From Candidatus Thiodiazotropha endoloripes (GTDB lineage Bacteria; Pseudomonadota; Gammaproteobacteria; Chromatiales; Chromatiaceae), in the NCBI GenBank assembly GCA_001709035.1, contig LVKA01000023.1, forward strand, positions 62,001-126,000: DNA of 64,000 nucleotides, given 5' to 3'. A program made the position numbers and the translations under genes. Numbering within the stretch: position 1 is the stretch's first letter; every line of letters begins with the position of its first letter. Below, piece by piece: positions 5,355 to 31,542 of this stretch. The notes under the pieces are model-generated. The model made no database searches, was not told where the DNA came from, and worked only from the letters and a program-made list of their open reading frames with translations.

Positions 5355-6371
5355 CTACTTCTGTTCTGCTGGTGCAGTGGTGTCTCCGCTCTCTTTTTCA
5401 GCGGTAGCCTCAGTGGCACTCTCAGACTGCTGTGATGACGCCATTGAGGCATCCTGTTGGGCATCCGGTGCTTGCTTGGCGTTCTTCTCATTGAAGATCA
5501 AACTAGCGGAATCACGCAATCCCTGCATATAATCGGTGAGGGCCTTCTGCTGCAGGGCGGTTTGGATTTTACCCTTGACGCTTTCCAGGGTGGGCGCCGG
5601 GCTCTGGCGGCTGTCCTCCAGCAGGATCACATGCCAGCCGAACTGGGTCTGTACCGGTGCGGCGGAGTATTTACCCTTCTCCATCCCGGTCAGAGCTTTG
5701 GCAAAAGGCTCCACCATCTGTGCGGCATCGAACCAGCCCAGGTCGCCGCCATCTTTACCGGTCGGTCCGGTTGAGTGTTGCTTGGCCAGTTCGGCGAAAT
5801 CACTGCCACCATCCAACTCGGTGATCAGCTTCTTGGCTTCCTCTTCCTCCTTCACCAGGATGTGTCTCGCCTTATACTCGGTATTCGACTGACTGGCATA
5901 CTCGGCGTCGTAGATCTGCTGAATCTCTTCGTCGGAGGGCTGATGTTTGGTGGCGTGCTCCTGGATTGCTACCTGGGTCAGCAATTTGGCTTTCAGCAAT
6001 TCAAGAGAAGCTGAAACATCCTCGCGTTCAGCCAGGCCGGCCTCTTCCGCTGCCTGAGAGACGATCAGAATATTGGCCAGCTCGTTGAGTACGCCCATCT
6101 GCATTTCCGCCGAGGTCTTGGCATCGGGCACACCACGCATGCGATCCTGGAAGTAGAGGCTGTACATGGCCCGGGTTACCGGTCTGCCATTCACTGTCAA
6201 CAGGGTGTTGACGTCCATATCCGCAGCATCGGTTTCTGGCTTCGCCGGCAAGGTGGCTGAACGTTGGTTGTCGTTGGCAACAACTGCGGTTGTCTGTTCC
6301 GTAGACTGATTACAGCCGCTAATAAGTCCAGCGCTGCACAGTGCAGCCAGAATGATCTGTTTGTTCATCAT
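5355..6371 (-). CDS. Parvulin-type peptidyl-prolyl isomerase, lipoprotein
   Basis: 338 residues. The N terminus is a lipoprotein signal with lipobox LISGC (Cys20), so the protein should be membrane-anchored on the periplasmic side. A SurA/PrsA-like helical chaperone region (about 55-160) precedes a PpiC rotamase domain (about 165-258) with the typical ARHILV, GGDLGWF and FGWHVILL motifs. The tail is low-complexity Gln/Ala/Ser/Glu-rich. It probably assists folding of exported proteins. It is transcribed towards the plus-strand gene ending at 5296. It differs from SurA in having one rotamase domain and a lipid anchor. Confidence 0.9.
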   Translation of the reverse strand: MMNKQIILAALCSAGLISGCNQSTEQTTAVVANDNQRSATLPAKPETDAADMDVNTLLTVNGRPVTRAMYSLYFQDRMRGVPDAKTSAEMQMGVLNELANILIVSQAAEEAGLAEREDVSASLELLKAKLLTQVAIQEHATKHQPSDEEIQQIYDAEYASQSNTEYKARHILVKEEEEAKKLITELDGGSDFAELAKQHSTGPTGKDGGDLGWFDAAQMVEPFAKALTGMEKGKYSAAPVQTQFGWHVILLEDSRQSPAPTLESVKGKIQTALQQKALTDYMQGLRDSASLIFNEKNAKQAPDAQQDASMASSQQSESATEATAEKESGDTTAPAEQK

Positions 6372-15211: not shown

Positions 15212-16141
15212 TTATTCGCTCATCACGACCCGATTGCGACCCTGGTTCTTGGCGACATAGAGCGCCTCGTCGGCACGCTTGAAGAGTGATTCAGTGGTGT
15301 CACCTTCATTCATCATGCTGACGCCCAGACTCAGGGTAACCTGCAGATCCTTCAAGGATTCAACACGCAGGTTTTCGATGTTTTCCCGGATTCTTTCAGC
15401 CAACAGTCTGGCGCCGGTCTGATCGGTACCGTTAAGCACCACCACAAACTCTTCACCACCGTAGCGATAGAGTGCGTCACTGCTGCGAATGGTTTGTTCT
15501 GCTGCCTTCGCAACCTGTTTCAATACCAGATCACCCACGGCATGACCAAATTGATCGTTAATCCGCTTGAAGAAATCGATATCCATGACGATCACGGAGA
15601 GTTCGCTGTTTTTGCGTCGATTGAGCTCGATTTCCCGACTGAAGTTGGAATCGAATGCGGTGCGGTTTTTAATGCCTGTCAGGGAGTCGAGAAACGCACT
15701 CTCGATGGCAGCCTGATAGAGCAGTGCATTACGCAGGGGATAGAGCAGGGCAGCGAGAAAATTCTCTACCTGGGCAATTTCAGATTTGTTATAGCGCTTG
15801 TTACGACTCACGACGACCTGACCGAGATCGGTATCCAGTACCTTCAGGTTGTAGCCGAGCTTGTTTCTCTGCTCATCCTGGCCAAAGTGCAACTCCAGTC
15901 CATTGGTTGGGGCGCAGTAGTCGAGGCTGTCGTAGAGTGCCTGGTTTCCCATCACCTGTGCGAACAGTTCGATCAGGGTATCCACTTCGAGGGTGGTCTG
16001 CAGTTTACCACTCAGCTCCATGATCAGGCCGAGGGTACCGTCATCATTGACGACGTCGGCTAAACGACCGAGGATAGGGCCGTTGGTGGGAGTGAAGCGG
16101 TCATGATGTATGCTGTGGATACCGGTCATTGTATTGCTCAC
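15212..16141 (-). CDS. Diguanylate cyclase with N-terminal sensory (GAF-like) domain
   Basis: 309 residues. The N-terminal ~140 residues look like a GAF-type sensor (LGLIMELSGKLQTTLEVDTLIELFAQ, and later LGQVVVSRNKRYNKSEIAQVENFLAALLYP). The C terminus is a GGDEF domain with RYGGEEF as active site and an intact inhibitory-site RxxD (RSSD) just upstream. It makes c-di-GMP from GTP; feedback inhibition is likely. No signal peptide or membrane segment, so cytosolic. GTG at 16141 or ATG at 16129 may be the start. Confidence 0.9.
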   Translation of the reverse strand: MSNTMTGIHSIHHDRFTPTNGPILGRLADVVNDDGTLGLIMELSGKLQTTLEVDTLIELFAQVMGNQALYDSLDYCAPTNGLELHFGQDEQRNKLGYNLKVLDTDLGQVVVSRNKRYNKSEIAQVENFLAALLYPLRNALLYQAAIESAFLDSLTGIKNRTAFDSNFSREIELNRRKNSELSVIVMDIDFFKRINDQFGHAVGDLVLKQVAKAAEQTIRSSDALYRYGGEEFVVVLNGTDQTGARLLAERIRENIENLRVESLKDLQVTLSLGVSMMNEGDTTESLFKRADEALYVAKNQGRNRVVMSE

Positions 16142-18059: not shown

Positions 18060-19097
18060 ATGAAAACAATTCCGTACATAGAAGATGACTTTGCCAAGGC
18101 ATCAGAATATTTGCGATTAGTAATTGCCTTCTTGTCCAAACAAGCTGTACCCCCATCACCCCTGAATTATCGGGTTGGTTACGATTACGTCACAGGCAGG
18201 AATAAGAAACTGGAAACCGCGATTAATGGATTGCTCGAAAGTGAGGGGGATGTTTCCACCGAATCCCTTTGGGAGGCTTATCAGCAATTCTTTGTTCAGG
18301 ATGACAAGGCTTTGGAGAGTATTCGACAGGAGCTGCGTCATCTTATCACCAGTATCCAAGGTGAATTCAGGCGTTCCGGTGGTGACCTGTCCAGCTACGT
18401 CACCAGGCTCAGTCAGTTTTCAACGATCCTGAATGATGCGATCTCACCCGAGGCCATGTCCGCTGAAGTGCAAAAGGTGATTGACGATACTCGTACCATG
18501 GAACAGTCCCAGCAGGAAATGGAATCACAGATGTCCAACGTCCTGTCAGAAGTGGAGTCATTGCGTAAGGAATTGGAGCAGGTCAAGCAAGAATCATTGA
18601 CAGATGCATTGACAGGTCTCGCCAATCGAAGAGCATTCGATACTGCGATCGAACAACATAGCTACTCAGCTCAGAAAATTCCATCTCCATCGCCATTTAC
18701 CTTGATGTTGATTGATATCGACCATTTCAAGCAATTCAATGACACCTATGGGCACTTGGTGGGGGATAAAGTGCTTCGATTTTTGTCTACGACCCTCAAA
18801 CACTGCCTCACGGGTAAGGATATTGCTGCGAGGTATGGTGGTGAGGAATTCGCCGTTATCCTGCCACAAACTCCTCTGAGTGGTGCGGATACTGTTGCTG
18901 AACAGATCCGGAATTCGATCTCATCAATCGAGCTGAAAGATCGAGTCAATGGAGAGAGTTATGGCAACGTATCCGTCTCTATCGGTATTGCGCAATATAG
19001 GTTGAATGAAATGCCGGATGAACTGATACAACGTGTTGATCAAGCCTTGTATCGCGCCAAGGAGCAGGGAAGGAACCGTGTTGAAAAGGCCGCCTGA
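18060..19097 (+). CDS. Diguanylate cyclase (GGDEF)
   Basis: 345 residues. The N-terminal ~170 residues are helical with a coiled-coil linker (VLSEVESLRKELEQVKQES) and start MKTIPYIEDDFAKASEYLRL, an arrangement common in soluble diguanylate cyclases. The GGDEF domain (about 178-345) has RYGGEEF, intact GTP-binding motifs (LTGLANRRAFD, IDIDHFKQFND) and YRAKEQGRNRV at the end. The inhibitory-site Arg is replaced (TGKD instead of RxxD), so product inhibition may be weak. It lies about 375 bases upstream of a c-di-GMP riboswitch. Confidence 0.92.
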   Translation: MKTIPYIEDDFAKASEYLRLVIAFLSKQAVPPSPLNYRVGYDYVTGRNKKLETAINGLLESEGDVSTESLWEAYQQFFVQDDKALESIRQELRHLITSIQGEFRRSGGDLSSYVTRLSQFSTILNDAISPEAMSAEVQKVIDDTRTMEQSQQEMESQMSNVLSEVESLRKELEQVKQESLTDALTGLANRRAFDTAIEQHSYSAQKIPSPSPFTLMLIDIDHFKQFNDTYGHLVGDKVLRFLSTTLKHCLTGKDIAARYGGEEFAVILPQTPLSGADTVAEQIRNSISSIELKDRVNGESYGNVSVSIGIAQYRLNEMPDELIQRVDQALYRAKEQGRNRVEKAA

Positions 19098-19471: not shown

Positions 19472-19566
19472 CGTGTTCGAAAAGGCAAACTCATCGAAAG
19501 GTGGGGACGCAAAATCACAGTCTAAGGGTGGCTGAGCCACCTACGACCGACGGATTACCGAAAACG
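19472..19566 (+). ncRNA. GEMM-I cyclic-di-GMP riboswitch aptamer
   Basis: All hallmark blocks of the GEMM-I class are present in order. P1 pairs CGTGTTCG (19472-19479) with CGAAAACG (19559-19566), with one mismatch. The core is AAGGCAAAC; P2 is CTCATC-GAAA-GGTGGG with the GNRA tetraloop; then the invariant GACGCAAA; P3 region GTCTAAG with a GGTGGC-TGA-GCCACC hairpin and TACGAC; and the terminal GGATTACCGA. The core G aligned with ligand-contacting G20 of the Vibrio Vc2 aptamer appears to be G, which fits c-di-GMP rather than cGAMP. It lies about 100 bases before the gene at 19666 on the same strand. Confidence 0.9.
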
Positions 19567-19665: not shown

Positions 19666-20040
19666 ATGATGTACACACGGTCCAAAGCACAATTAACTTT
19701 CCACGGTTTGGTACTGTTACTCATGACTACGGCATTCAATTCTGTAGCGAGTGATCATTATCATGATGTCATGTCCAACAGTGCGGATCAGCAGAAATGG
19801 GTATGTGATTATTCAAGAGGGTATGACGACGTACTCTATCTGCGCTGTGATAATCTGATGAGCCTCTATAGTGACCCTTTGATCATGGAAGGGGACTACC
19901 AGGATAACTCAACCAAATTTATTCCGATCTGGCGCAAGTCAAGCAATCCGCAAGGGGCAGTGAAACTGGTTAAAGCTGTGCTTTGTAATCAGGATGCTCA
20001 ATGCAGTGTGCAGATGAAATCACTTTTTGCTGCCAGATAA
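19666..20040 (+). CDS. Small exported protein under riboswitch control, unknown function
   Basis: 124 residues. The N-terminal hydrophobic segment (LTFHGLVLLLMTTAFNSVAS) reads as a signal peptide with likely cleavage near VAS-DHYH. The mature ~90 residues contain four cysteines (WVCDYS, LRCDNL, VLCNQD, QCSVQ), enough for two disulfides, and no membrane segment. GGGGAAG lies close before the ATG pair. No family recognised. The c-di-GMP aptamer upstream implies expression tied to the attached or motile state. It converges with the cytochrome operon on the other strand. Confidence 0.75.
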   Translation: MMYTRSKAQLTFHGLVLLLMTTAFNSVASDHYHDVMSNSADQQKWVCDYSRGYDDVLYLRCDNLMSLYSDPLIMEGDYQDNSTKFIPIWRKSSNPQGAVKLVKAVLCNQDAQCSVQMKSLFAAR

Positions 20041-20066: not shown

Positions 20067-20104
20067 ATACCAATTCCACTTACCTTTGTAAGTGGGGTTG
20101 GTAT
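20067..20104. terminator. Bidirectional terminator hairpin
   Basis: ATACCAA, two mismatched bases, CCACTTAC, a CTTT loop, GTAAGTGG, two bases, TTGGTAT: a long stem between convergent genes. On the minus strand it is followed by a T-rich stretch (ATTTCTATTTAT), so it mainly ends the cytochrome operon. Confidence 0.65.
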
Positions 20105-21261
20105 CATCTGTTCATCTTGTAAACACCAACCTCTTCATACTCGTTTTTACCCATAGGCTTCAAAACTAGAAAATAACCGTCTTTCAGTTTTTGAAATGAG
20201 AGATCTTTGATAATTGGTTCATGGGTAAAAATTACCAGGTTGCCTTTCCCTTCATAACTACCAATGCGTGTGTCCAGTTGGGAAGCGTAGCTCTCGGCCT
20301 TGTCAGCTGGGAGCTTTTTATTTGATGCCAGATATTCCACTGTTTCAGCCTGACCGAATGCTGCCATTGCTGTCTCTTTCGCAAGGCAGTGAGGGCTGGA
20401 TATGACCTGCTCAACGTTAACGCCTCTGGATTTGAAGAGTTTGCCGACTTTAATGGCTTCCGCCTTACCTTTTGCCGATAAGTTGGCTTTGCTGTTGCAT
20501 GAGGTATCACGAAGTAGGGCAGCTGTTTTATCCTTATCGTTTTCCAATGTTGGCGACTTCATAACCACTACCAGCCCACCATCTTCCAGATGTGCCCAAA
20601 CCTGGTAAAGCAATCTGATATAGCTGACTAAAGCATCGACTTCCTCATTAGTCAGTATGCCTTTCCAGCCTGGCATGTAATCTCCCTTGCCCTCAATAAT
20701 ATCTTTGGCCAGAGTGTTATTGCTAAAATCATCTGCCTTGTTCGGGTTAGTTAGATCAATTGGAATAACACCAATTAGATTGGTTAAAGCACCATCCCCA
20801 ACACCTTCTACGCCATGACAAATTGAGCAATAACGCTGATAGAGTTCATACCCGAGTTCCGGGTCACCGGGTAGATCATGTTTGGTGGTGCTGAGAAAGC
20901 GCAGATAGGCAATCAGTGCTGAGATTTGGCGCTGATTGAGCACCTCTTTCCATTTAGGCATATCCTTGCTGATCTTACCGTGTCTTGATTGCAGAGACTT
21001 GGGAACATTCTTATCCCCGGTAATAATTACATTCAGACCGTAATCACTCATCGTTGGTACATAGTCGGTAAGATCCTCCGGTTCGATCTTCATTTTCTTC
21101 GCCAGAGGGCCATATCCTTTCCCATCCATACCATGACAGATCATGCAGTGTGATATGTAGAGTTTTCTGCCCTCAAACGCAGGGGAAGAGTTGGCAAGCG
21201 CTGCAGGAGCGGCTGCGATCAGAAGGGTGAAAAAAGCCAATACCTGAGTGACAAGTCTCAT
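20104..21261 (-). CDS. Dihaem cytochrome c fused to a degenerate histidine-phosphatase-like domain
   Basis: 385 residues. A signal peptide (about 1-23) is followed by two class I-type cytochrome c domains. Their haem sites are CMICH (39-43) and CSICH (145-149), with probable axial Met101 (DMPKW) and Met196 (YMPGW). From about 225 the sequence follows the histidine phosphatase superfamily (LEDGGLVVVMKSP, NLSAKGKAEAIKVGKLF, VISSPHCLAKETAMAAFG, NLVIFTHEPII). The catalytic RHG/RHA is replaced by MKSP and the second Arg (CRxxET) by Leu, so enzyme activity is unlikely. Last gene of the cytochrome cluster. The fusion may be a ligand-binding or partner-docking module (inference). Confidence 0.85.
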   Translation of the reverse strand: MRLVTQVLAFFTLLIAAAPAALANSSPAFEGRKLYISHCMICHGMDGKGYGPLAKKMKIEPEDLTDYVPTMSDYGLNVIITGDKNVPKSLQSRHGKISKDMPKWKEVLNQRQISALIAYLRFLSTTKHDLPGDPELGYELYQRYCSICHGVEGVGDGALTNLIGVIPIDLTNPNKADDFSNNTLAKDIIEGKGDYMPGWKGILTNEEVDALVSYIRLLYQVWAHLEDGGLVVVMKSPTLENDKDKTAALLRDTSCNSKANLSAKGKAEAIKVGKLFKSRGVNVEQVISSPHCLAKETAMAAFGQAETVEYLASNKKLPADKAESYASQLDTRIGSYEGKGNLVIFTHEPIIKDLSFQKLKDGYFLVLKPMGKNEYEEVGVYKMNR

Positions 21262-21332
21262 AGTTTAACCCCAAGAAGATAGCGTGTGTATCGAGTCAAT
21301 ACTTTCCACCGAAATTAAGTCAAACCAGATCA

Positions 21333-23144
21333 TCAATAGTCAAAACCATCATGTACCTTTCCATGGCAATCCAGCCAACAGCTACCGCTGTGTATGCCTG
21401 TATCCAACCAGGTAGGTTCGAGATAATCACCGGTACCAGTGATTGTTCTGATCTGCCCGCCAACGTTGGATGAGGTGAGGAAATTAATCAGATGTCGATT
21501 CGACGCAGATCCATGGGGATCATGGCAATTGATACAACCCAGGTTTTCTGCAACTACGTGTTCAGTATGTGGGAAGGATTGATCCGTATACAAATTACCT
21601 GAATCATGACATTTGAAGCAGAGATCGTTTGAGAGCGTTGTAGAGTTGGCAGGGTCGATATCATAAGTTTGGGCCATAATCCCTTGATGGATCGAACCAT
21701 GCGGACCCGCAGGCCCCAGGCCACCGGCAGCAGGCGATGTGTTACTGCTGTGGCAGTCACTGCAATAGATCTGTCCGCTAAAAGTGGTGAGCGGGATGTC
21801 GCTACGAAGACTGGGTACTTCGCTATTGTTTGAAGGATCGTTTTCCACGATGGGATGGTATGAAACCAGGGCTGGGTTGCCTGAATTCACCTTGTCACGG
21901 ATATTGTAAACGCCATCAGCCCTCACCATATTGTAACTATCTGCGGTTGAACAGCGCTGGTTATCACAGGCACTTTTTCCGGGTACGCCATGGCATTTAA
22001 AACAGACTTCATACTCGAAGTCCGCTTCCTGCTTGAAATTGCCGTTGGCATCTATACCAGTGACACCGATCATGCTGCCATTAACAGCAGGTGCAACTGA
22101 GTGACCTCCACCCATTGGATTCGTCGGATTGAATGAGATCATTGGCGCTTCACTGAAACTGGCGTGGGGGTTATGGCAGTCTTCGCACTCCACATGCCAG
22201 GGCATCATTAGAGGATTTTCGGTGCGCGCAGAGTGTTCGTCATTAAGGGCAATCTCAACCGGGTGGTGATAAATTTTCTGTATTTCGGTCTGGATATCGG
22301 TCTGCGCGACAGTGCCATTATGGCAGAGGTAGCAAGTATCCTCCTCTATACCTTTGATCAGTCTTTCCGGTGTTGCGGCATTGTGGGGTGTATGGCAGTT
22401 CATACAAGCGTTCGCTTGTACGGTCAGTCCTGCCCATTCAGGCTTACGTTCAGACCAGGGGTTGGTGCCTTGGGGTGTGGCGGTTGAAGTTGCATGTGAA
22501 CTATTGGACCAGATCCAGGCAGTACCTGCGCCTTCAGGCCTTGGCATATGGCAGGTAACACACAGATCACCATTCGTAGTTGATTTATGCAGAAATGGGG
22601 GATGAATGTTCTCATGAGCATCATGGCATGAGGAGCAGTGAAGCTCATTGTTTCGTAGTGGTAGATCCACATTGTTTGGGTGCACCAGATCAGGGTCGGT
22701 ATTCAAAAGAGTAGGATTGTAGATAATGGATACCGGATGATCATCAGATAGATCTGTACCCAACAGAGCGCGATCAGTGATATATGTGGTACTTAAATCG
22801 GTGATCGTACCCGGTCTCCCTATATTACCCAAGGCGATGGTGCCATCATGGCAAGACAGGCAAAGAACTGATGACGAACTCATGGTGCCTGCATCAGCAT
22901 GTGTCGTGCTACTGAGATAGTCAATATAGATCCCTGTAGAGGATCTGTTCCACAATGGTGAATCTGGCGCAGAGGCATGTGGGGTATGACAAAAAATGCA
23001 GATTCGATCCTCAGTGTTGCTTTTAACCGTAAACTGACCGCTTGAGGACAGGTTATGCGCCGTCTCAGCAATGCCTGCCAGAGTGATACCGGGAATCGTT
23101 GTCAGTAGTAGAAATAGAAGATAGATATTTCGCATATCATTCAT
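21333..23144 (-). CDS. Multihaem cytochrome c (11 CXXCH plus one CX3CH)
   Basis: 603 residues with a signal peptide (about 1-23). Eleven CXXCH motifs begin at Cys 49, 95, 170, 195, 247, 271, 320, 381, 461, 509 and 537, and CWLDCH (589-594) may bind a twelfth haem. Several are followed by TPH or PH, as in c3/OmcE-like proteins. The first ~200 residues repeat the tetrahaem architecture of the protein at 27270-27896 (CHTPH, LWN, CLSCHDGT, DLSDDHP, SCHDAH). No lipobox, so periplasmic or secreted. The start overlaps the upstream NHL gene by 8 bases. Likely an extracellular electron acceptor-donor or the wire within the porin. Confidence 0.92.
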   Translation of the reverse strand: MNDMRNIYLLFLLLTTIPGITLAGIAETAHNLSSSGQFTVKSNTEDRICIFCHTPHASAPDSPLWNRSSTGIYIDYLSSTTHADAGTMSSSSVLCLSCHDGTIALGNIGRPGTITDLSTTYITDRALLGTDLSDDHPVSIIYNPTLLNTDPDLVHPNNVDLPLRNNELHCSSCHDAHENIHPPFLHKSTTNGDLCVTCHMPRPEGAGTAWIWSNSSHATSTATPQGTNPWSERKPEWAGLTVQANACMNCHTPHNAATPERLIKGIEEDTCYLCHNGTVAQTDIQTEIQKIYHHPVEIALNDEHSARTENPLMMPWHVECEDCHNPHASFSEAPMISFNPTNPMGGGHSVAPAVNGSMIGVTGIDANGNFKQEADFEYEVCFKCHGVPGKSACDNQRCSTADSYNMVRADGVYNIRDKVNSGNPALVSYHPIVENDPSNNSEVPSLRSDIPLTTFSGQIYCSDCHSSNTSPAAGGLGPAGPHGSIHQGIMAQTYDIDPANSTTLSNDLCFKCHDSGNLYTDQSFPHTEHVVAENLGCINCHDPHGSASNRHLINFLTSSNVGGQIRTITGTGDYLEPTWLDTGIHSGSCWLDCHGKVHDGFDY

Positions 23145-24144
23145 CCACCTTCAGGTATTGAAAAACCTGGATGCGTTGATTATAAGAGTCGGCGACAAAT
23201 ATTTTGTCATTCCACACGGCTAACCCTGTCGGCATCTGGAACTCTCCATGTTGTCTGCCGGTGTTGCCAAACTCAAGTAAAAACTCACCGTTTTGGGTAA
23301 AAATCTGAATTCTATTCGCCAGAGCATCGGCGATATAGATATGTCCATCAGAGTCTACCGCTATTCCCTTTGACTGCGTCAGGTAACCGGAAGCGTCTCC
23401 CTGCTTGCCAAAGGTTGATATGTGTTGCCCATTACTATCGAATACTTGAACTCTGAAGTTCATGGTGTCGTTGACAAAGAGTTTCTTATCCGAGGTTGCC
23501 AAGTGACTTGGGTAGTTAAACTCTAGATCATTTTCGCCCCGCTCACCGATTTTGAATAAGTAGTTTCCTACTAGATCATACGCAAAGACCTTATGAGCCA
23601 ATGTATCTGCAATAAACAATCGTTGCTGGGATGGGTTTAATGACAGGCTGGTAGGGCGTTCTAATCCTTCAATTATGTGTTGAAGCTTATTACTGGAATC
23701 CAAAACAAATACTTTATTTGATTTTGAATCAGCAATGAAGAGCCTGTGACTATCAATGGCTACACTGATAGGTGATTCAAGTTGGTTTTCGCCGACACGT
23801 TCTATTCTGTTGTGAGTCTGCTTTTTGAGATCGTATAAATGCACCACAGCTGCATCCGGATCTGCTATAGCTAGCCTGTTTTCAAAGACTGCAAGTGCAT
23901 AGGGGCGTGCTAAATTTTGATCATCTGCACCAGTAAAGAGATCAAGTAATTTAGTGAATATTGATTTTTCTATGCCTAAGTCCTGGGCATTGCTGAAAGC
24001 GGCGATAAACTCTATTCTGGCCGGTTCTGGTGCCGAAGGCCAGACAATCCGCTGGCCCTCTTTTGCAGGCTCGAAAGTTACCGGGCCTGTAGATGAGCAA
24101 GCGGTGAGAAAGAGGAAAATTGTAAGTAAGATAAGTCTACTCAC
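23137..24144 (-). CDS. NHL-repeat beta-propeller lipoprotein (copy 2)
   Basis: 335 residues with lipobox LTAC (Cys16). After a WPSAPEPARIEFI segment come about six NHL blades (for example PYALAVFENRLAIADPDA, PTSLSLNPSQQRLFIADT, KGIAVDSDGHIYIADALANRIQIF, PTGLAVWNDKIFVADSYNQRIQVF). It should be an outer-membrane-anchored propeller. It is a paralogue of the protein at 28417-29508. It overlaps the beta-barrel gene by 4 bases and the multihaem gene by 8, so the three are translationally coupled. A structural or docking partner of the cytochromes is the likely role (inference). Confidence 0.88.
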   Translation of the reverse strand: MSRLILLTIFLFLTACSSTGPVTFEPAKEGQRIVWPSAPEPARIEFIAAFSNAQDLGIEKSIFTKLLDLFTGADDQNLARPYALAVFENRLAIADPDAAVVHLYDLKKQTHNRIERVGENQLESPISVAIDSHRLFIADSKSNKVFVLDSSNKLQHIIEGLERPTSLSLNPSQQRLFIADTLAHKVFAYDLVGNYLFKIGERGENDLEFNYPSHLATSDKKLFVNDTMNFRVQVFDSNGQHISTFGKQGDASGYLTQSKGIAVDSDGHIYIADALANRIQIFTQNGEFLLEFGNTGRQHGEFQMPTGLAVWNDKIFVADSYNQRIQVFQYLKVDE

Positions 24145-26156
24145 AATATTCTCCGCCTCAACGTGATCATCAGTCTATCCTCGTTTGTCTCGGTCGTACC
24201 ACTATTATCTGAGTTGGTCACTTCTCGACGATCGTGGTTGTATTTAAAATCCAGGTCGAGTTTACGGTAGCGCCATTGAGCAAGAATACCAGCTGTGAAG
24301 AATTCATCGTCTTTGCGCCCCCCTGCGACTGCAGTGCCCACATCTTCTCTTTTCCAGCCGCTTATGGTCGGTCGAATCGTCAGATTTCTACTGGCTTGCC
24401 AATTTACGATGAAGTCAAGGCGATAGAGATCTGTGTCTAGAAAATCCTGTTCTGTAAATGATTGAGTGGCATTTAAACTCCAATTGATGCTCTGTCCACC
24501 TCTGCGTACAGATGGGGTCCACGAAAACCGCTGATTGAAAGAATATGTGGTCGATTCGAACCCACCGGTTTCGGTATAACGCCTTTCAGCACCGATTATC
24601 GTGTCAATATTGAGCGGTTTGAAATGAAACTCAAGATCGGTATAAGTATTGCGTGTATTCTGCAGAAAACTTTCACTTGCTCCTGTGATGAGTTTGTCGT
24701 CAGACTTGCTATCGCTATGGGAGAGTCTTACCCAATCGTAATCTATGGTGAAATGGTAGTTAGTGAAAACAGTGGAGAACTCTTGCGTGGGTAGTATTTC
24801 CGCATCGTAGCTTACCAGTAGGGTATCTCCTGACTCTATCCTGCCGCCTGGTACAATCTGTAGCTGAGTCAGATCACCAGATAGGTCTATAATCGTATAG
24901 TCTGTGTTTTCGTCATACACGGTAATCCCATCACTATCGGTAACTACGATGGTGCTGGCGATGATAAAGCGTTGTTCGAGCAGGATGGCCCCGGTAAAAG
25001 GGACTGATTGACTCTCATCGATAACATCGATGGTGCCAAGTGTGGAAACCCTGTCAGTTTCCTGGTATGAAGCCCGTACCCCAGCACTGATGTAAGCGCC
25101 CAAAAGCTTGTTTTTGGTATATCGTGTTTCCAGGCCTACTCGCCACTTGTCCTCCTCCAGGTCGTCAGATTCGCGCTTGTTGAGATTGCCATAGCCCATG
25201 GTGTTCAGATTATTGTAGAGTTTGTGGTGGAGCTCAAATCTTCCACCATGCTCTGTGTTTTCTATGGTTTGCTCTGTGGACTGATAGTGATAGGTGGTAC
25301 GGCTGTGAATATTATCAAGGTGTTGTATCCTTGCACTCTCACTGATCGTTAGACGTTCATTGGCGTTGAAACCCGTACGGTCCGAATAGTTAAGGTTTGA
25401 ATCCAACTGACTGTTACGACCCCATAGCAGATGGTGTGAAATATTCGCTCTGTCCAGTTCATAATCCTGATTTCGCGAAATGATACGGTCATCTAATTCG
25501 TCATGGGTGAGGTGGATGCTTAGCTTGCTGCTTCGTCCCTTCAGGTTCCAGCTTTTCAATAGTTCGTCGCGTTCGGTAACCGGATTCGTCAGGCTTGAAC
25601 GGAACTCTTCATCAAGGGTTTCCTCTTCGTAGGAGAGGCTCATTGGAAAGGCTGAATTTTTCCAGTTGAGGGTAGCACCATAAGACTCGATATCAGTGTC
25701 GAAACGACTGCCCAGTGAGCCGGTATTCAGGCTTGTATTCTTCTGTGCAGCTAGATCTAGACCAAAAGGGCCTGGTGTTCCCTGCAGCAGGCTGGTCTGC
25801 AGTAGATAGTTGAACAGCTCACCATCGTATTCCTCGAGGGTGTCGTCGGTTTCAACTTCAGTCCAGGTATAGAGTGGTTCTATATCGATGAGAAACCAGG
25901 CAATCCTGGGATCCAAGAGATATCCCATTTGTGCAATTCTAAGGCCTGCCTGCCACTCAATTTCTTGGGATTCGATGCCATTTTTTGATTTAGTGCCATC
26001 AAATTTTACTACTGCATCCAATTCAGTGGGGTAGAGTACGAAACTACTGTTTGATTCGGCAGCGAGCCTCTCACTCCAGAGAAAAGTAATCGTGGCAACC
26101 AACCAAATGAATGCCAGCGGTATCACTGATCTTGTCATGACCTCCAGGGGAAGCAT
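24141..26156 (-). CDS. Large outer-membrane beta-barrel protein (putative porin of a porin-cytochrome conduit)
   Basis: 671 residues. A signal peptide (IPLAFIWLVATITFL...AAES) is followed by a long series of alternating aromatic/polar strands typical of an outer-membrane barrel. It ends in RLMITLRRRIL; the final residue is Leu rather than the usual aromatic. A small insert around 390-450 (TDSDGITVYDENTDYTIIDL ... VPGGRIESGDTLLVSYDAE) recalls Ig-like inserts of other barrels. The size is in the range of MtrB/OmbB/ExtI-type conduit porins, though it lacks the N-terminal CXXC of MtrB. The start may be 26156 or 26138. Flanked by cytochromes and NHL lipoproteins. Confidence 0.8.
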   Translation of the reverse strand: MLPLEVMTRSVIPLAFIWLVATITFLWSERLAAESNSSFVLYPTELDAVVKFDGTKSKNGIESQEIEWQAGLRIAQMGYLLDPRIAWFLIDIEPLYTWTEVETDDTLEEYDGELFNYLLQTSLLQGTPGPFGLDLAAQKNTSLNTGSLGSRFDTDIESYGATLNWKNSAFPMSLSYEEETLDEEFRSSLTNPVTERDELLKSWNLKGRSSKLSIHLTHDELDDRIISRNQDYELDRANISHHLLWGRNSQLDSNLNYSDRTGFNANERLTISESARIQHLDNIHSRTTYHYQSTEQTIENTEHGGRFELHHKLYNNLNTMGYGNLNKRESDDLEEDKWRVGLETRYTKNKLLGAYISAGVRASYQETDRVSTLGTIDVIDESQSVPFTGAILLEQRFIIASTIVVTDSDGITVYDENTDYTIIDLSGDLTQLQIVPGGRIESGDTLLVSYDAEILPTQEFSTVFTNYHFTIDYDWVRLSHSDSKSDDKLITGASESFLQNTRNTYTDLEFHFKPLNIDTIIGAERRYTETGGFESTTYSFNQRFSWTPSVRRGGQSINWSLNATQSFTEQDFLDTDLYRLDFIVNWQASRNLTIRPTISGWKREDVGTAVAGGRKDDEFFTAGILAQWRYRKLDLDFKYNHDRREVTNSDNSGTTETNEDRLMITLRRRIL

Positions 26157-26161
26157 GATGT

Positions 26162-26506
26162 CTACTGCTCTTCGAGTAGGTGGCAGCGGTTACAATTGGC
26201 AAATCCATCGTCAAAGGCATCTGTACCATTATGGCAAACGGCACAGGTCTTGCCTTCTTTCATTACGTCCTTATTGATCGTAGTGGTCCCGGTTTTCATC
26301 TCAAAAATTGTATTGTGACAGGCATCACAGCGGTAATTGAGTCGATGGATCCAATGGGGAAAGATTGATGGTGGGAATGATTTTAGTTTTTCTGGATCAC
26401 CACCTTCTCGAGTGTATTGAATATCACCAGGGGCTGCGGTCAGTAATGAACCGTACAAGAAAAGACATATTAATGTTGTTGTTAGAACACAAGTGTACTT
26501 GCGCAT
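26162..26506 (-). CDS. Trihaem c7-type cytochrome
   Basis: 114 residues with a signal peptide (about 1-25, ending LLTAAPG). It has three CXXCH motifs (RCDACHN, TCAVCHN, NCNRCH) with distal histidines in FPHWIHRLNYRC, the pattern of the c7-type trihaem domain. Probably a periplasmic electron carrier feeding the barrel-cytochrome complex. The beta-barrel gene starts five bases after its stop codon. Related in sequence to the haem domain at 26560-27249. Confidence 0.92.
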   Translation of the reverse strand: MRKYTCVLTTTLICLFLYGSLLTAAPGDIQYTREGGDPEKLKSFPPSIFPHWIHRLNYRCDACHNTIFEMKTGTTTINKDVMKEGKTCAVCHNGTDAFDDGFANCNRCHLLEEQ

Positions 26507-26559
26507 ACCTTCACCAATTATTTACCCTGAATGCAACTACAGCTGTAGTGGTATATGGA

Positions 26560-27249
26560 TTATTCGTCTTCTTCTTCTTCCTCGTCGTCACTGTTGATAT
26601 GGCAGCGGTCGCATGCTTTCAGAGAGAATGAGACTTTCTTTTTACCATGACAAGCGCCACAGGATGCCCCCCGCTTCATCTCTTTCATCGTTGCAGGATT
26701 TCTTCGATAGGGGTAGAGCGTGGGATTATGACAGTTCTTGCACCCAAGCCACTCGGTGTGTGCAGAGTGGGGAAAGAAGGCATCATCCTCCCGCTCTTCA
26801 CCTGGAATGATAAAATCCCATTGGAAGGCCTTAGCCCACAAGGCCCGAGGGTCTTTTCCTGGACGGGGTCTTATCATTCCCTGTTTCAATGCCATGGACC
26901 AGTCGACATTGTCTTCTTCATCTTTGGGTAGGATTTCCTCCACCCTGTCCCATTCATTGATCGACTCAATCTCTGGTCTTGGGCCAGTATCAGCAGGTTG
27001 TTGGAAATATCCAGCAGAGAAATTACCTGATTGACCTGCTTTCAATCCTTGTGTTTGAGCTTCAATCAGTGCGGTTTGTCGTTTTAGTTCCTGCTCTGCC
27101 AGCTCTTTGGCTGTCGGTGGCTGAATATCGAAAAATACCTGTTTGGACTCTGTACTGCAGGAAGCAATCCATAACAGAGAGGGCACAACCAGGATAATTG
27201 ATATTACCCTGGTTATGCTGAATGTCTCTCTATTCCCAATGCGAATCAT
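26560..27249 (-). CDS. Lipoprotein with C-terminal trihaem c7-type cytochrome domain
   Basis: 229 residues. Lipobox IASC (about Cys31) gives a lipid-anchored protein. A Gln/Glu-rich helical linker (ELAEQELKRQTALIEAQTQG) and a Pro-rich region precede the haem domain (about 155-215): FFPHSAHTEWLGCKNCH, RGASCGACHGKKK and SLKACDRCH. The extreme C terminus is a run of Asp/Glu residues. It could span part of the periplasm or plug the porin from inside (inference). Between the tetrahaem and trihaem genes on the same strand. Confidence 0.9.
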   Translation of the reverse strand: MIRIGNRETFSITRVISIILVVPSLLWIASCSTESKQVFFDIQPPTAKELAEQELKRQTALIEAQTQGLKAGQSGNFSAGYFQQPADTGPRPEIESINEWDRVEEILPKDEEDNVDWSMALKQGMIRPRPGKDPRALWAKAFQWDFIIPGEEREDDAFFPHSAHTEWLGCKNCHNPTLYPYRRNPATMKEMKRGASCGACHGKKKVSFSLKACDRCHINSDDEEEEEDE

Positions 27250-27269
27250 GGGATGGATACGCTGTGTGA

Positions 27270-27896
27270 TTACTTAATGTGACAGGCCAGACAGAGTGCG
27301 CTGCCAGCATTACTCATTCGAAGGAATGGCTCATTGGTATTGTCATGCACAGAATGGCATGTACCACACTCAACCTGATCCCCGGTTCCACCGAACAGTT
27401 GCAGACCATTCACCTGAGAATTCACAGCTGCAACAAAATCAGGATCCTGTGTTGCGTTATAGGTCAGGGAGATAGGATGGTCGTTGCTCAGATCTGTACC
27501 GAGACTGTCCCCCAGGAAAAATATCCCATCAGGTCCAGTAACACCAGACGGAAAATTGATCAGTGAGTCAGCAGCAACAGAACCGTCATGGCAGCTGAGG
27601 CACGCAAGAGAGACACCAGCCGGTGATCCGGCAATGGTCATGTCCAGTGAGGGACTGCTGTACATGGTGTAGGTGGCGACTGTATCTTGATGATTCCATA
27701 ATGGGGTCGTACTGTTTGTGGTACTGGCATTATGGGGTGTGTGGCAGTAAGCACAGATTTGTGTATTACCGGCCTGGGTCAAGAGTGTTGTTTGACTACG
27801 CAGGTCATGCGATGTATTGGCAATATCCGCAGTTGCAGATGTGACAAGCAGGGCAAGTGAGGCAAAAATAATACCCAGGATTGCTGTTTTTCTCAT
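27270..27896 (-). CDS. OmcE-like tetrahaem cytochrome c
   Basis: 208 residues with a signal peptide (about 1-23). Four CXXCH motifs start at Cys48 (CAYCHTPH), Cys99 (CLSCHDGS), Cys177 (CGTCHSVHD) and Cys202 (CLACH, four residues from the end). Spacing and side motifs (LWN, LGTDLSNDHPISLTYN, PFLRMSNAGSALCLACH) resemble the Geobacter OmcE type of tetrahaem subunit, known to polymerise into extracellular filaments. A very good ribosome binding site (AAGGAGG, 6 bases before ATG) suggests high expression. Filament formation here is an inference. Confidence 0.88.
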   Translation of the reverse strand: MRKTAILGIIFASLALLVTSATADIANTSHDLRSQTTLLTQAGNTQICAYCHTPHNASTTNSTTPLWNHQDTVATYTMYSSPSLDMTIAGSPAGVSLACLSCHDGSVAADSLINFPSGVTGPDGIFFLGDSLGTDLSNDHPISLTYNATQDPDFVAAVNSQVNGLQLFGGTGDQVECGTCHSVHDNTNEPFLRMSNAGSALCLACHIK

Positions 27897-28340
27897 GCCA
27901 TTCCTCCTTAGCAGGGTAAAGGATGATGCACCAGCTCCATTTGAGTGCTTTACGTTATTACTATTCTTAACTAGGGGTACTTCTACTGCATGTGGCCGTG
28001 CTGCCTTGTTGACCGGCAGTTCTTAGGCTTTCTTAAGGTTCGCTTAAGAAATGGGAAAATATTCCCACATCTATTGTAATATTATGACAACGCTATATTA
28101 AGGTCAATGGTTTTAAGGAATTTAATTGGTTTTTCTTAGTTAGTATTTTTAGTTTTTTTGATTTTAGAGCGATCTATGAAATATCAAGTAAAACACTGGG
28201 TATTTTAAACTTCGTGGTAATTCTCTGACATTCAAATCATCTACCGTTGTTGTGTGAATTATCATGAGGGATTATTAAGAATTCATTAAGAAATATTAAA
28301 TGAAAATTAATTTGTGTTGACATAACTCGATTAAAACGAG
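27897..28340. promoter_or_regulatory. AT-rich regulatory region upstream of the tetrahaem gene, with two dyads
   Basis: No gene is supported here. A perfect inverted repeat TTTCTTAAG-GTTCG-CTTAAGAAA lies at 28030-28052, and a second dyad GGGAA-AATA-TTCCC follows directly at 28054-28067. They sit 130-170 bases before the tetrahaem start. Further TTAAGAA copies lie at about 28270-28295. Together they look like an operator or a structured leader for the cytochrome operon. Confidence 0.45.
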
Positions 28341-28376
28341 AGTTAGTGCAACTTTGGCACTAACTGTTTTCTTTTC
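28341..28376. terminator. Strong hairpin terminator
   Basis: AGTTAGTGC, a 7-base loop and GCACTAACT are followed on the plus strand by TGTTTTCTTTT. In the minus direction, 50 bases past the NHL gene, it is followed by TCTCGTTTT and a second small stem. It probably ends the NHL lipoprotein transcript. The perfect plus-strand form could also terminate an unseen plus-strand RNA. Confidence 0.65.
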
Positions 28377-28416
28377 TGATTAAGAGTAGAAAATCAAACT
28401 TTAGTGTATGTTGCTA

Positions 28417-29508
28417 TTATTCTGCCTCTCCTAAGTACTCAAACATTTGGATTCGCTGGTTCAATTGATCTGCTACAAAGATTTTATTATTTTTATCCAC
28501 GTGAGCTCCTGCTGGCAGATAGAAGCCTCCTGGTCCTGTACCTGGCTTGCCTACAGTCAGTAGAAGCTGGCCTTCCTGATTGAAGATCTGCATATTGTTG
28601 AATGCGGCATCTATGGTATAGATGTGGCCGTCATGATCGATACCGATACCCTTGAGTCGACTGAATTGTCCGCGTCCGTCGCCAAGGTTGCCGAAACCCT
28701 TCAAATATTTACCTTGTTGATCAAAAATCTGAACGCGGAAATTCATTGTATCTGCGAGATATATCTGGCCCTTTTCATCAATTGTAATGTTGGTGGGGTA
28801 GTTGAATTTTCCATTCTCAGAACCTCGATCACCAATGGTAAAATCAACCCCTCCATTCTTATTAAAAACAATGACTTGGTGCTTTTTTGAGTCGACCACA
28901 TAGAGTTGTTGAGTGCTATCGTTGAAGGTCAGTCCCACTGGTGAAATGAGGACATCACTACCACCAAATGCATTGATAAACTGCCCATCTTTACTGTACA
29001 TCACGACTCGATGATCAATAACATCGCTGACATAAACGTTGCCTTCCGAGTCGGTAGTGACACCTGTTGGTTTTTTCAGCGTTCCAGGGCCACTGGTGCC
29101 CAAGAACTCCATCGATTCGTTATTAAGGTCGAATACTGCAAGTCCGGAAATACCCGTGTCAGCGACATAAACCCGGCCCTGAGAGTCACTGTGAACACCA
29201 TAGGGTTTCACCAGGGTACGGGATTCCTCCTCCTCTTTTCCAAGAAACCACTCTCGAAGTCCCATTCCTTGGCCACTATCGAAAGAGTCTGAGGACTTCA
29301 AACTGCCGAGATAGCGTATTCTGGGCTTCTCTGGTGGCGCAGGCCAAACATAATTCCCAGCATCAGCCCGTTGGCCTTGGGCAGATGGCCCTGGAGAAGC
29401 GCAGCCTGAAACCAGAATGATTATCGATACAAGTAAAATAAGATGTAACAGCACTCTCTTTTGATCTGTGTGTTGCGAGTGGTAATCAGATACAGGTCTG
29501 GATCTCAC
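28417..29508 (-). CDS. NHL-repeat beta-propeller lipoprotein (copy 1)
   Basis: 363 residues. GTG start with GGAGG five bases upstream; the N terminus is long before the lipobox VSGC. A WPAPPEKPRIRYLGSL segment precedes six NHL blades (for example KPYGVHSDSQGRVYVADTG, PTGVTTDSEGNVYVSDVID, PTNITIDEKGQIYLADTMNFRVQIF, PAGAHVDKNNKIFVADQLNQRIQMF). Paralogue of the protein at 23137-24144, with the same opening motif. It is separated from the cytochromes by a terminator and a regulatory region, so it is probably its own transcript. Likely outer-membrane-attached. Confidence 0.87.
   Translation of the reverse strand: MRSRPVSDYHSQHTDQKRVLLHLILLVSIIILVSGCASPGPSAQGQRADAGNYVWPAPPEKPRIRYLGSLKSSDSFDSGQGMGLREWFLGKEEEESRTLVKPYGVHSDSQGRVYVADTGISGLAVFDLNNESMEFLGTSGPGTLKKPTGVTTDSEGNVYVSDVIDHRVVMYSKDGQFINAFGGSDVLISPVGLTFNDSTQQLYVVDSKKHQVIVFNKNGGVDFTIGDRGSENGKFNYPTNITIDEKGQIYLADTMNFRVQIFDQQGKYLKGFGNLGDGRGQFSRLKGIGIDHDGHIYTIDAAFNNMQIFNQEGQLLLTVGKPGTGPGGFYLPAGAHVDKNNKIFVADQLNQRIQMFEYLGEAE

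Positions 29509-30700: not shown

Positions 30701-31542
<842 letters not shown>

Follow-up and report, generated by a model that had tools for sequence, protein, structure and literature searches.

The gene clusters closest to the one analyzed here belong to a conduit called Uet and to the cytochrome nanowires of Geobacter. As far as the accessible text of PMC10734462 goes, Uet consists of an undecahaem cytochrome (UetJ), a tetrahaem cytochrome (UetA), trihaem cytochromes (UetDEG), a prolyl isomerase (UetB), NHL proteins (UetHI) and a barrel (UetC). Genes for trihaem, TPR and undecahaem proteins of Candidatus Tenderia carry neighbouring locus tags (Tel_16515-16545; PMC5371394, excerpt), and for this reason the TPR protein (UetF) is counted in Uet here. 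In the OmcE filament, haem 2 is ligated by a histidine of the adjacent subunit (PMC12203936, excerpt). How the cell anchors and feeds cytochrome nanowires is called an open challenge in the available part of a 2025 review (PMC12307469).

The locus of interest lies in a stretch of 64,000 nucleotides from Candidatus Thiodiazotropha endoloripes (the window, i.e., the whole stretch of DNA that was analyzed). Candidatus Thiodiazotropha are sulfur-oxidising symbionts of lucinid clams. The locus is probably a Uet-like extracellular electron transfer operon, which combines an OmcE-type nanowire subunit with its own outer-membrane conduit. Its eight ORFs all lie on the minus strand (20104-29508), and the ORF listing of the window reproduced them with the strand and coordinates given in a sequence-only reading of this DNA. 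In the direction of transcription, they encode an NHL beta-propeller lipoprotein of the UetH/I type (28417-29508, 363 residues, lipobox LVSGC), a putative tetrahaem nanowire subunit of the OmcE and UetA type (27270-27896, 208 residues) behind a leader (27897-28416), a trihaem c7 lipoprotein (26560-27249, 229 residues), a second trihaem c7 protein (26162-26506, 114 residues), a large predicted outer-membrane beta-barrel of the UetC type (24141-26156, 671 residues), a second NHL beta-propeller lipoprotein (23137-24144, 335 residues), the dodecahaem cytochrome J of the UetJ type (21333-23144, 603 residues), and a fusion of a dihaem cytochrome c with a histidine-phosphatase-like domain (20104-21261, 385 residues). 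The overlaps claimed between the genes of barrel and NHL protein (24141-24144) and of NHL protein and large cytochrome (23137-23144) are both present. The claimed total of 23 CXXCH motifs was also borne out. All 23 are in frame and are spread over five of the eight ORFs, with four in the tetrahaem gene, three in each trihaem gene, eleven in the gene for J, and two in the dihaem gene. In the whole window and on both strands, DNA coding for CXXCH was matched 31 times, compared to a mean of 5.86 in 100 shuffles (sd 2.57, maximum 15). Two further matches in the cluster stretch (25178 on the plus strand, and 27841) are out of frame with any cytochrome gene.

The domain search identified NHL repeats in both propeller proteins. 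Their description as lipoproteins agrees with the presence of a lipobox, detected by regular expression, in 18 of 18 members of the NHL-I family and 15 of 17 members of the NHL-H family. The same expression found a lipobox in all 17 members of the trihaem-a family, as anticipated for the one trihaem protein that was thought to be lipid-anchored. Both trihaem proteins scored well above the NCBIfam cut-off of 40 for TIGR04257 (66 and 65 bits), confirming that they are of the c7 type. Doubled-CXXCH domains were present in the tetrahaem protein and the large cytochrome, and the dihaem protein contains cytochrome c domains, in keeping with its interpretation as a dihaem fusion. The RHG motif is absent from the histidine-phosphatase-like domain of this fusion in 15 of 15 family rows. 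The fusion gene adjoins the cluster, and is conserved, in the genus and in g36, a second genus that has the cluster.

The surroundings of the cluster contain several other elements. A c-di-GMP-I riboswitch aptamer (66 bits, 19474-19562, plus strand) lies upstream of a small ORF (19666-20040, plus strand), which has no Pfam match and is convergent with the cluster; the aptamer adjoins the cluster in 8 of 8 loci of the genus that were scanned. Two GGDEF genes are located nearby (15212-16141 and 18060-19097). The integrase-core fragment of an insertion element (30755-31144) overlaps the end of a response-regulator ORF (31135-31542) by ten bases.

Along its entire length, the tetrahaem protein matched OmcE, the Geobacter nanowire subunit (7TFS; E 6.5e-37), and it also matched a second deposited multihaem protein with 16 chains (9YUQ, E 8.7e-29). 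Among 30 rows of the tetrahaem family, chosen by score and by the presence of four CXXCH, these motifs and histidines 30, 55, 140 and 184 are invariant (30/30), and the same four motifs and four histidines are kept in 99-100% of 82 N-terminal domains of J. In the tree, OmcE groups with the 30 tetrahaem rows and apart from the 82 domains of J (100/98, with a bootstrap that had not settled). Full-length homology, four CXXCH and further conserved histidines, taken together as the marks of an OmcE subunit, are thus all found in the tetrahaem protein. Homology to OmcE is nevertheless no proof of polymerisation, and the accessible text of PMC10734462 describes Uet without a nanowire. It is therefore conceivable that the cluster is a plain Uet conduit, in which barrel, J and c7 proteins carry electrons and the tetrahaem protein is a monomeric surface or periplasmic shuttle. 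We regard this as unlikely, given the full-length homology to a filament subunit, the retention of all haem sites and further histidines, and the NHL companions that are found in J loci and OmcE loci alike.

The leader of the gene for the presumed nanowire subunit contains a promoter-like site (TTGACC-17-TAATAT, 28107-28079), the TTGAC of which is shared by all nine leaders in the alignment. Between this site and the start of the tetrahaem gene lies a perfect inverted repeat, TTCTTAAG-N5-CTTAAGAA (approximately 28030-28050), which is also kept in all nine leaders and is a candidate operator or leader hairpin. Profile and sequence searches of the same genome detected no second OmcE-like gene and no second J.

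The large cytochrome J had been credited with 11 to 12 haem motifs. The true number is twelve, made up of eleven CXXCH and one CX3CH (residues 589-594, 21363-21380), and each of the twelve recurs in all aligned relatives (62 of 62). This corrects the number of haems given for the "undecahaem" protein. The alignment comprises 62 of 73 sequences, including the one from the window. Rows L089 and L108, which have only 10 CXXCH, are among those left out, and the "invariant" haem sites therefore refer to the 62. J begins with an OmcE-like tetrahaem domain (residues 29-200, 22545-23060; profile E 1.1e-40), and its model aligns with OmcE and also with the decahaem protein MtrA. J also has a nearly invariant histidine, H217 (61/62), just past its fourth haem, at the point where the sequence of the wire subunit stops. 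Since all four haems of the wire subunit and its four histidines are retained in the N-terminal domain of J, this domain could share the haem bond between subunits.

We tentatively suggest, with more doubt than confidence, that this domain and the wire subunit are ancient paralogues, and that the domain binds the first subunit. J would then be the base of the nanowire, with its MtrA-like remainder in the barrel, in some ten phyla including animal symbionts, and a single polypeptide would connect the wire with the electron pool of the periplasm. The orientation of J matters for this model. The N-terminal end of MtrA faces the periplasm, and by this analogy the OmcE-like domain of J could face inside, on the periplasmic side.

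The description of the 671-residue protein as a beta-barrel is supported by its AlphaFold2 model (pLDDT 87.3), which has approximately 28-29 long strands and lacks a plug domain. The protein did not match any Pfam family. This includes the MtrB family PF11854, so that the HMM check against MtrB envisaged in the sequence-only reading was negative. Genome-wide, the sole PF11854 match was marginal and on another contig. The barrel alignment comprised 48 of 53 sequences, window included. In fold comparisons, the model matched MtrB no better than unrelated large barrels such as TonB receptors and LptD, which counts against our main reading. This likeness would also fit a transporter, with cytochromes that supply an outer-membrane-side reductase or store haem and a cluster without a role in electron transfer; electron transfer by the cluster is a prediction from sequence and models. 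However, the model without a plug domain, the absence of a match to a Pfam transporter family and the constant pairing of the barrel with multihaem cytochromes in relatives make a transporter very improbable.

The predicted barrel was matched in 19 of 210 genomes of the order, namely 13 of the 22 genomes of the genus that were shown (with the own genome counted, and a distant variant in G139), 5 of 5 g36 genomes, and one other genome. The gene-neighbourhood comparison that had been proposed revealed a conserved gene order. The complete series NHL - tetrahaem - trihaem - trihaem - barrel - NHL - large cytochrome - dihaem fusion was present in 11 of 18 stretches, seven of which have a small monohaem gene, in opposite orientation, ahead of the dihaem fusion. 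This small cytochrome c gene, between J and the dihaem gene, is exemplified by L025 11701-12033, has equivalents in L026-L034, and is absent from the window. The remaining stretches were L033 with a duplication, L034 with a barrel gene in two frames, three stretches cut by contig ends, and the divergent L035 and L036, which retain tetrahaem - NHL - barrel - NHL - large cytochrome. In L033 (2329-6338, g36 genome), the tetrahaem and lipoprotein-trihaem genes are duplicated in tandem, with a truncated copy of the second trihaem gene in between. The two frames in L034 (6141-8449; 620 and 82 residues) reflect a frameshift or an assembly error.

In the class, the barrel profile matched 15 of 369 genomes. 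Seven class loci were read, and five of them had tetrahaem, NHL gene, barrel and J, while two were partial. In the own genome (G000), six matches to the NapC family exceeded the cut-off. Two matches to dsrA also exceeded the curated threshold (C14:15310-16509 and C7:915751-916953), and behind each of them lies a weaker one, probably dsrB.

A scan with the J alignment, using one genome per species, yielded at least 558 confirmed relatives. Only the best 80 of these were kept, and the fractions given below therefore describe the closer relatives. According to record titles, which may misname a contig in the case of metagenome bins, the best 80 loci belonged to Proteobacteria, Desulfuromonadales and other former Deltaproteobacteria, Bacteroidetes, Planctomycetota, Verrucomicrobia, Nitrospirae, Nitrospinota, Calditrichota, Hydrogenedentes, Zixiibacteriota, KSB1 and BRC1. 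In about ten of these groups, again among the best 80 of at least 558, there are loci that combine all four components: tetrahaem, NHL, barrel and J. Within the same 80, 40 loci have flanks of 6.5 kb or more to either side. A tetrahaem gene, defined as an ORF with four CXXCH and more than 60 bits anywhere in the locus, was present in 37 of the 40 and went undetected in three. At least two NHL genes were present in 39. The profile identified a barrel in 32 and none in eight, and the figure of 32 is probably low because the profile was built from near relatives. The loci in which tetrahaem gene or barrel went undetected count against the main reading. An NHL gene was located directly upstream of J in 55 of the 69 loci, among the best 80 of at least 558, that have at least 1.2 kb upstream. 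The periplasmic cytochromes differ among loci, which have two trihaem proteins, one pentahaem protein, or neither.

For comparison from the side of the nanowire, OmcE was searched in 244 genomes of the class to which the Desulfuromonadales MAG L108 belongs, and 29 matched with an E-value of 1e-40 or lower. Identity reached at most 63%, indicating that the genomes drawn did not include G. sulfurreducens itself. In the neighbourhoods that were read (11 of the 29 matching genomes, orthologues 48-63% identical), an NHL gene was always found directly ahead of the OmcE orthologue (11/11). An 8-haem cytochrome and a protein of 711-806 residues, a putative barrel, were likewise encoded in all 11 loci, and a 9- or 10-haem cytochrome in seven. 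J was not found in these 11 loci, where the cytochromes are separate, and the putative barrel was weakly related to the cluster barrel (probability 51, E 1.5e-4). Both observations count against the main reading, and the different companion cytochromes speak for a conduit without a wire. The 9-10-haem cytochrome aligned with residues 165-603 of J, CX3CH included (hhalign probability 99.6, E 1.5e-23), and its profile matched MtrA (E 7.5e-19). Because of this alignment, J looks like an OmcE-like domain fused to a cytochrome that stands alone in OmcE loci.

The genes of Candidatus Thiodiazotropha endoloripes suggest the following path, in which the localisation of the proteins and the formation of filaments are predictions. 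Electrons would be exchanged between the inner membrane, with NapC-type quinol dehydrogenases encoded elsewhere in the genome, and the trihaem c7 proteins of the periplasm, of which one is tethered by a lipid. Inside the large barrel, J, with its haem chain resembling MtrA, would carry them across the outer membrane. The last step would be exchange with the tetrahaem protein of the OmcE type, which would be polymerised outside the cell. The two NHL lipoproteins may be scaffold or assembly factors, by likeness to the role proposed for OscD in the OmcS system. Shen et al. are said to have described OscD as a propeller and OscEFG as a channel in 2025.

The same path could serve electron uptake instead of export, with the symbiont oxidising solid or partner-borne donors via the cluster. 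This alternative concerns direction alone and is compatible with the main reading. As far as the excerpted sources go, Uet has been suggested to take up electrons in Tenderiales, and it has been named as a possible path of iron oxidation in Gallionella and Leptothrix. On the other hand, sulfide-oxidising hosts have no shortage of electrons and could require an additional sink, the OmcE of Geobacter transfers electrons outward, and direction is not readable from sequence. Uptake appears plausible to us, with somewhat less than an even chance. Two published observations count against an extracellular electron transfer operon with a wire, the reading that we prefer. The role of OmcE and OmcS filaments in electron transfer is disputed (PMC11077965 and PMC13194489, both in excerpt), and in the accessible text of PMC9769857, three cytochrome-gene deletions in Desulfovibrio ferrophilus, concerning two clusters that hold NHL genes, left Fe(III) oxide reduction unimpaired.

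The recurrent operon with J, which joins a wire-subunit domain to an MtrA-like haem chain, is a concrete and testable candidate for the wire anchor. The present findings also tie the Uet conduit to OmcE nanowires. A search for OmcE together with undecaheme or Uet terms did not find this link in the available portions of PMC12575090, PMC13264449 and PMC12203936, and the paper that named Uet may state it. For the relatives in lucinid clams and tubeworms, the operon suggests that they could exchange electrons with solids or partners.

The cluster had been put forward as a new type of conduit. An electron conduit is still the best reading, but the claim of a distinct type falls, since the layout matches the published Uet cluster. 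Compared by gene description with uetABCDEFGHIJ of Candidatus Tenderia and Tenderiales, it has in common the tetrahaem protein A, barrel C, trihaem proteins, NHL proteins H and I, and a J with 11 CXXCH that is encoded with the barrel (barrel - NHL - J). In contrast to the three trihaem genes of Uet (UetD/E/G), it has two. The domain search detected no counterpart of the isomerase UetB among the eight genes, and no TPR family, as in UetF, at E 0.01. A scan of further window genes located a PpiC-type gene at 5355-6371, about 14 kb from the cluster. The dihaem/phosphatase-like fusion is an addition relative to Uet, and no locus titled Tenderia was among the best 80 of at least 558 relatives of J. 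Because isomerase, TPR protein and one trihaem protein are missing, which also counts against the main reading, we call the cluster Uet-like and not a strict member of Uet.

With MtrCAB and MtoAB, the cluster shares a large barrel and a cytochrome whose model aligns with MtrA. However, its barrel is not matched by the MtrB family, and no MtrC/OmcA-type cytochrome reached the cut-off in the domain search of the cluster proteins. The Oet conduit and OmcX/OmcS-like nanowires have been proposed to be encoded together in syntrophic sulfate reducers (PMC10553843, excerpt). The idea of a nanowire co-encoded with a porin conduit is thus shared, but the Oet cytochromes (OetA, OetB, OetI) differ, and the word OmcE does not occur in the available text of that paper.

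Closer to the wire itself, the OmcE loci share with the cluster a tetrahaem protein that is homologous over its full length, NHL genes and multihaem cytochromes, one of which is related to J. They differ by the 8-haem and, in 7 of 11, the MtrA-related 9-10-haem cytochrome in place of J, and by the weakly related barrel. In the osc operon of Geobacter sulfurreducens, OmcS is grouped with OscH, OscE-G and OscD, which are proposed to act in its folding, secretion and morphology, respectively (PMC13194489, excerpt). OmcS belongs to a different, hexahaem family, and the present cluster lacks a prolyl-isomerase gene. Judged by description, both nevertheless group the gene of a nanowire cytochrome, putative in our case, with genes that may help to build the wire, and among known systems the osc operon comes closest to a nanowire encoded with its companions.
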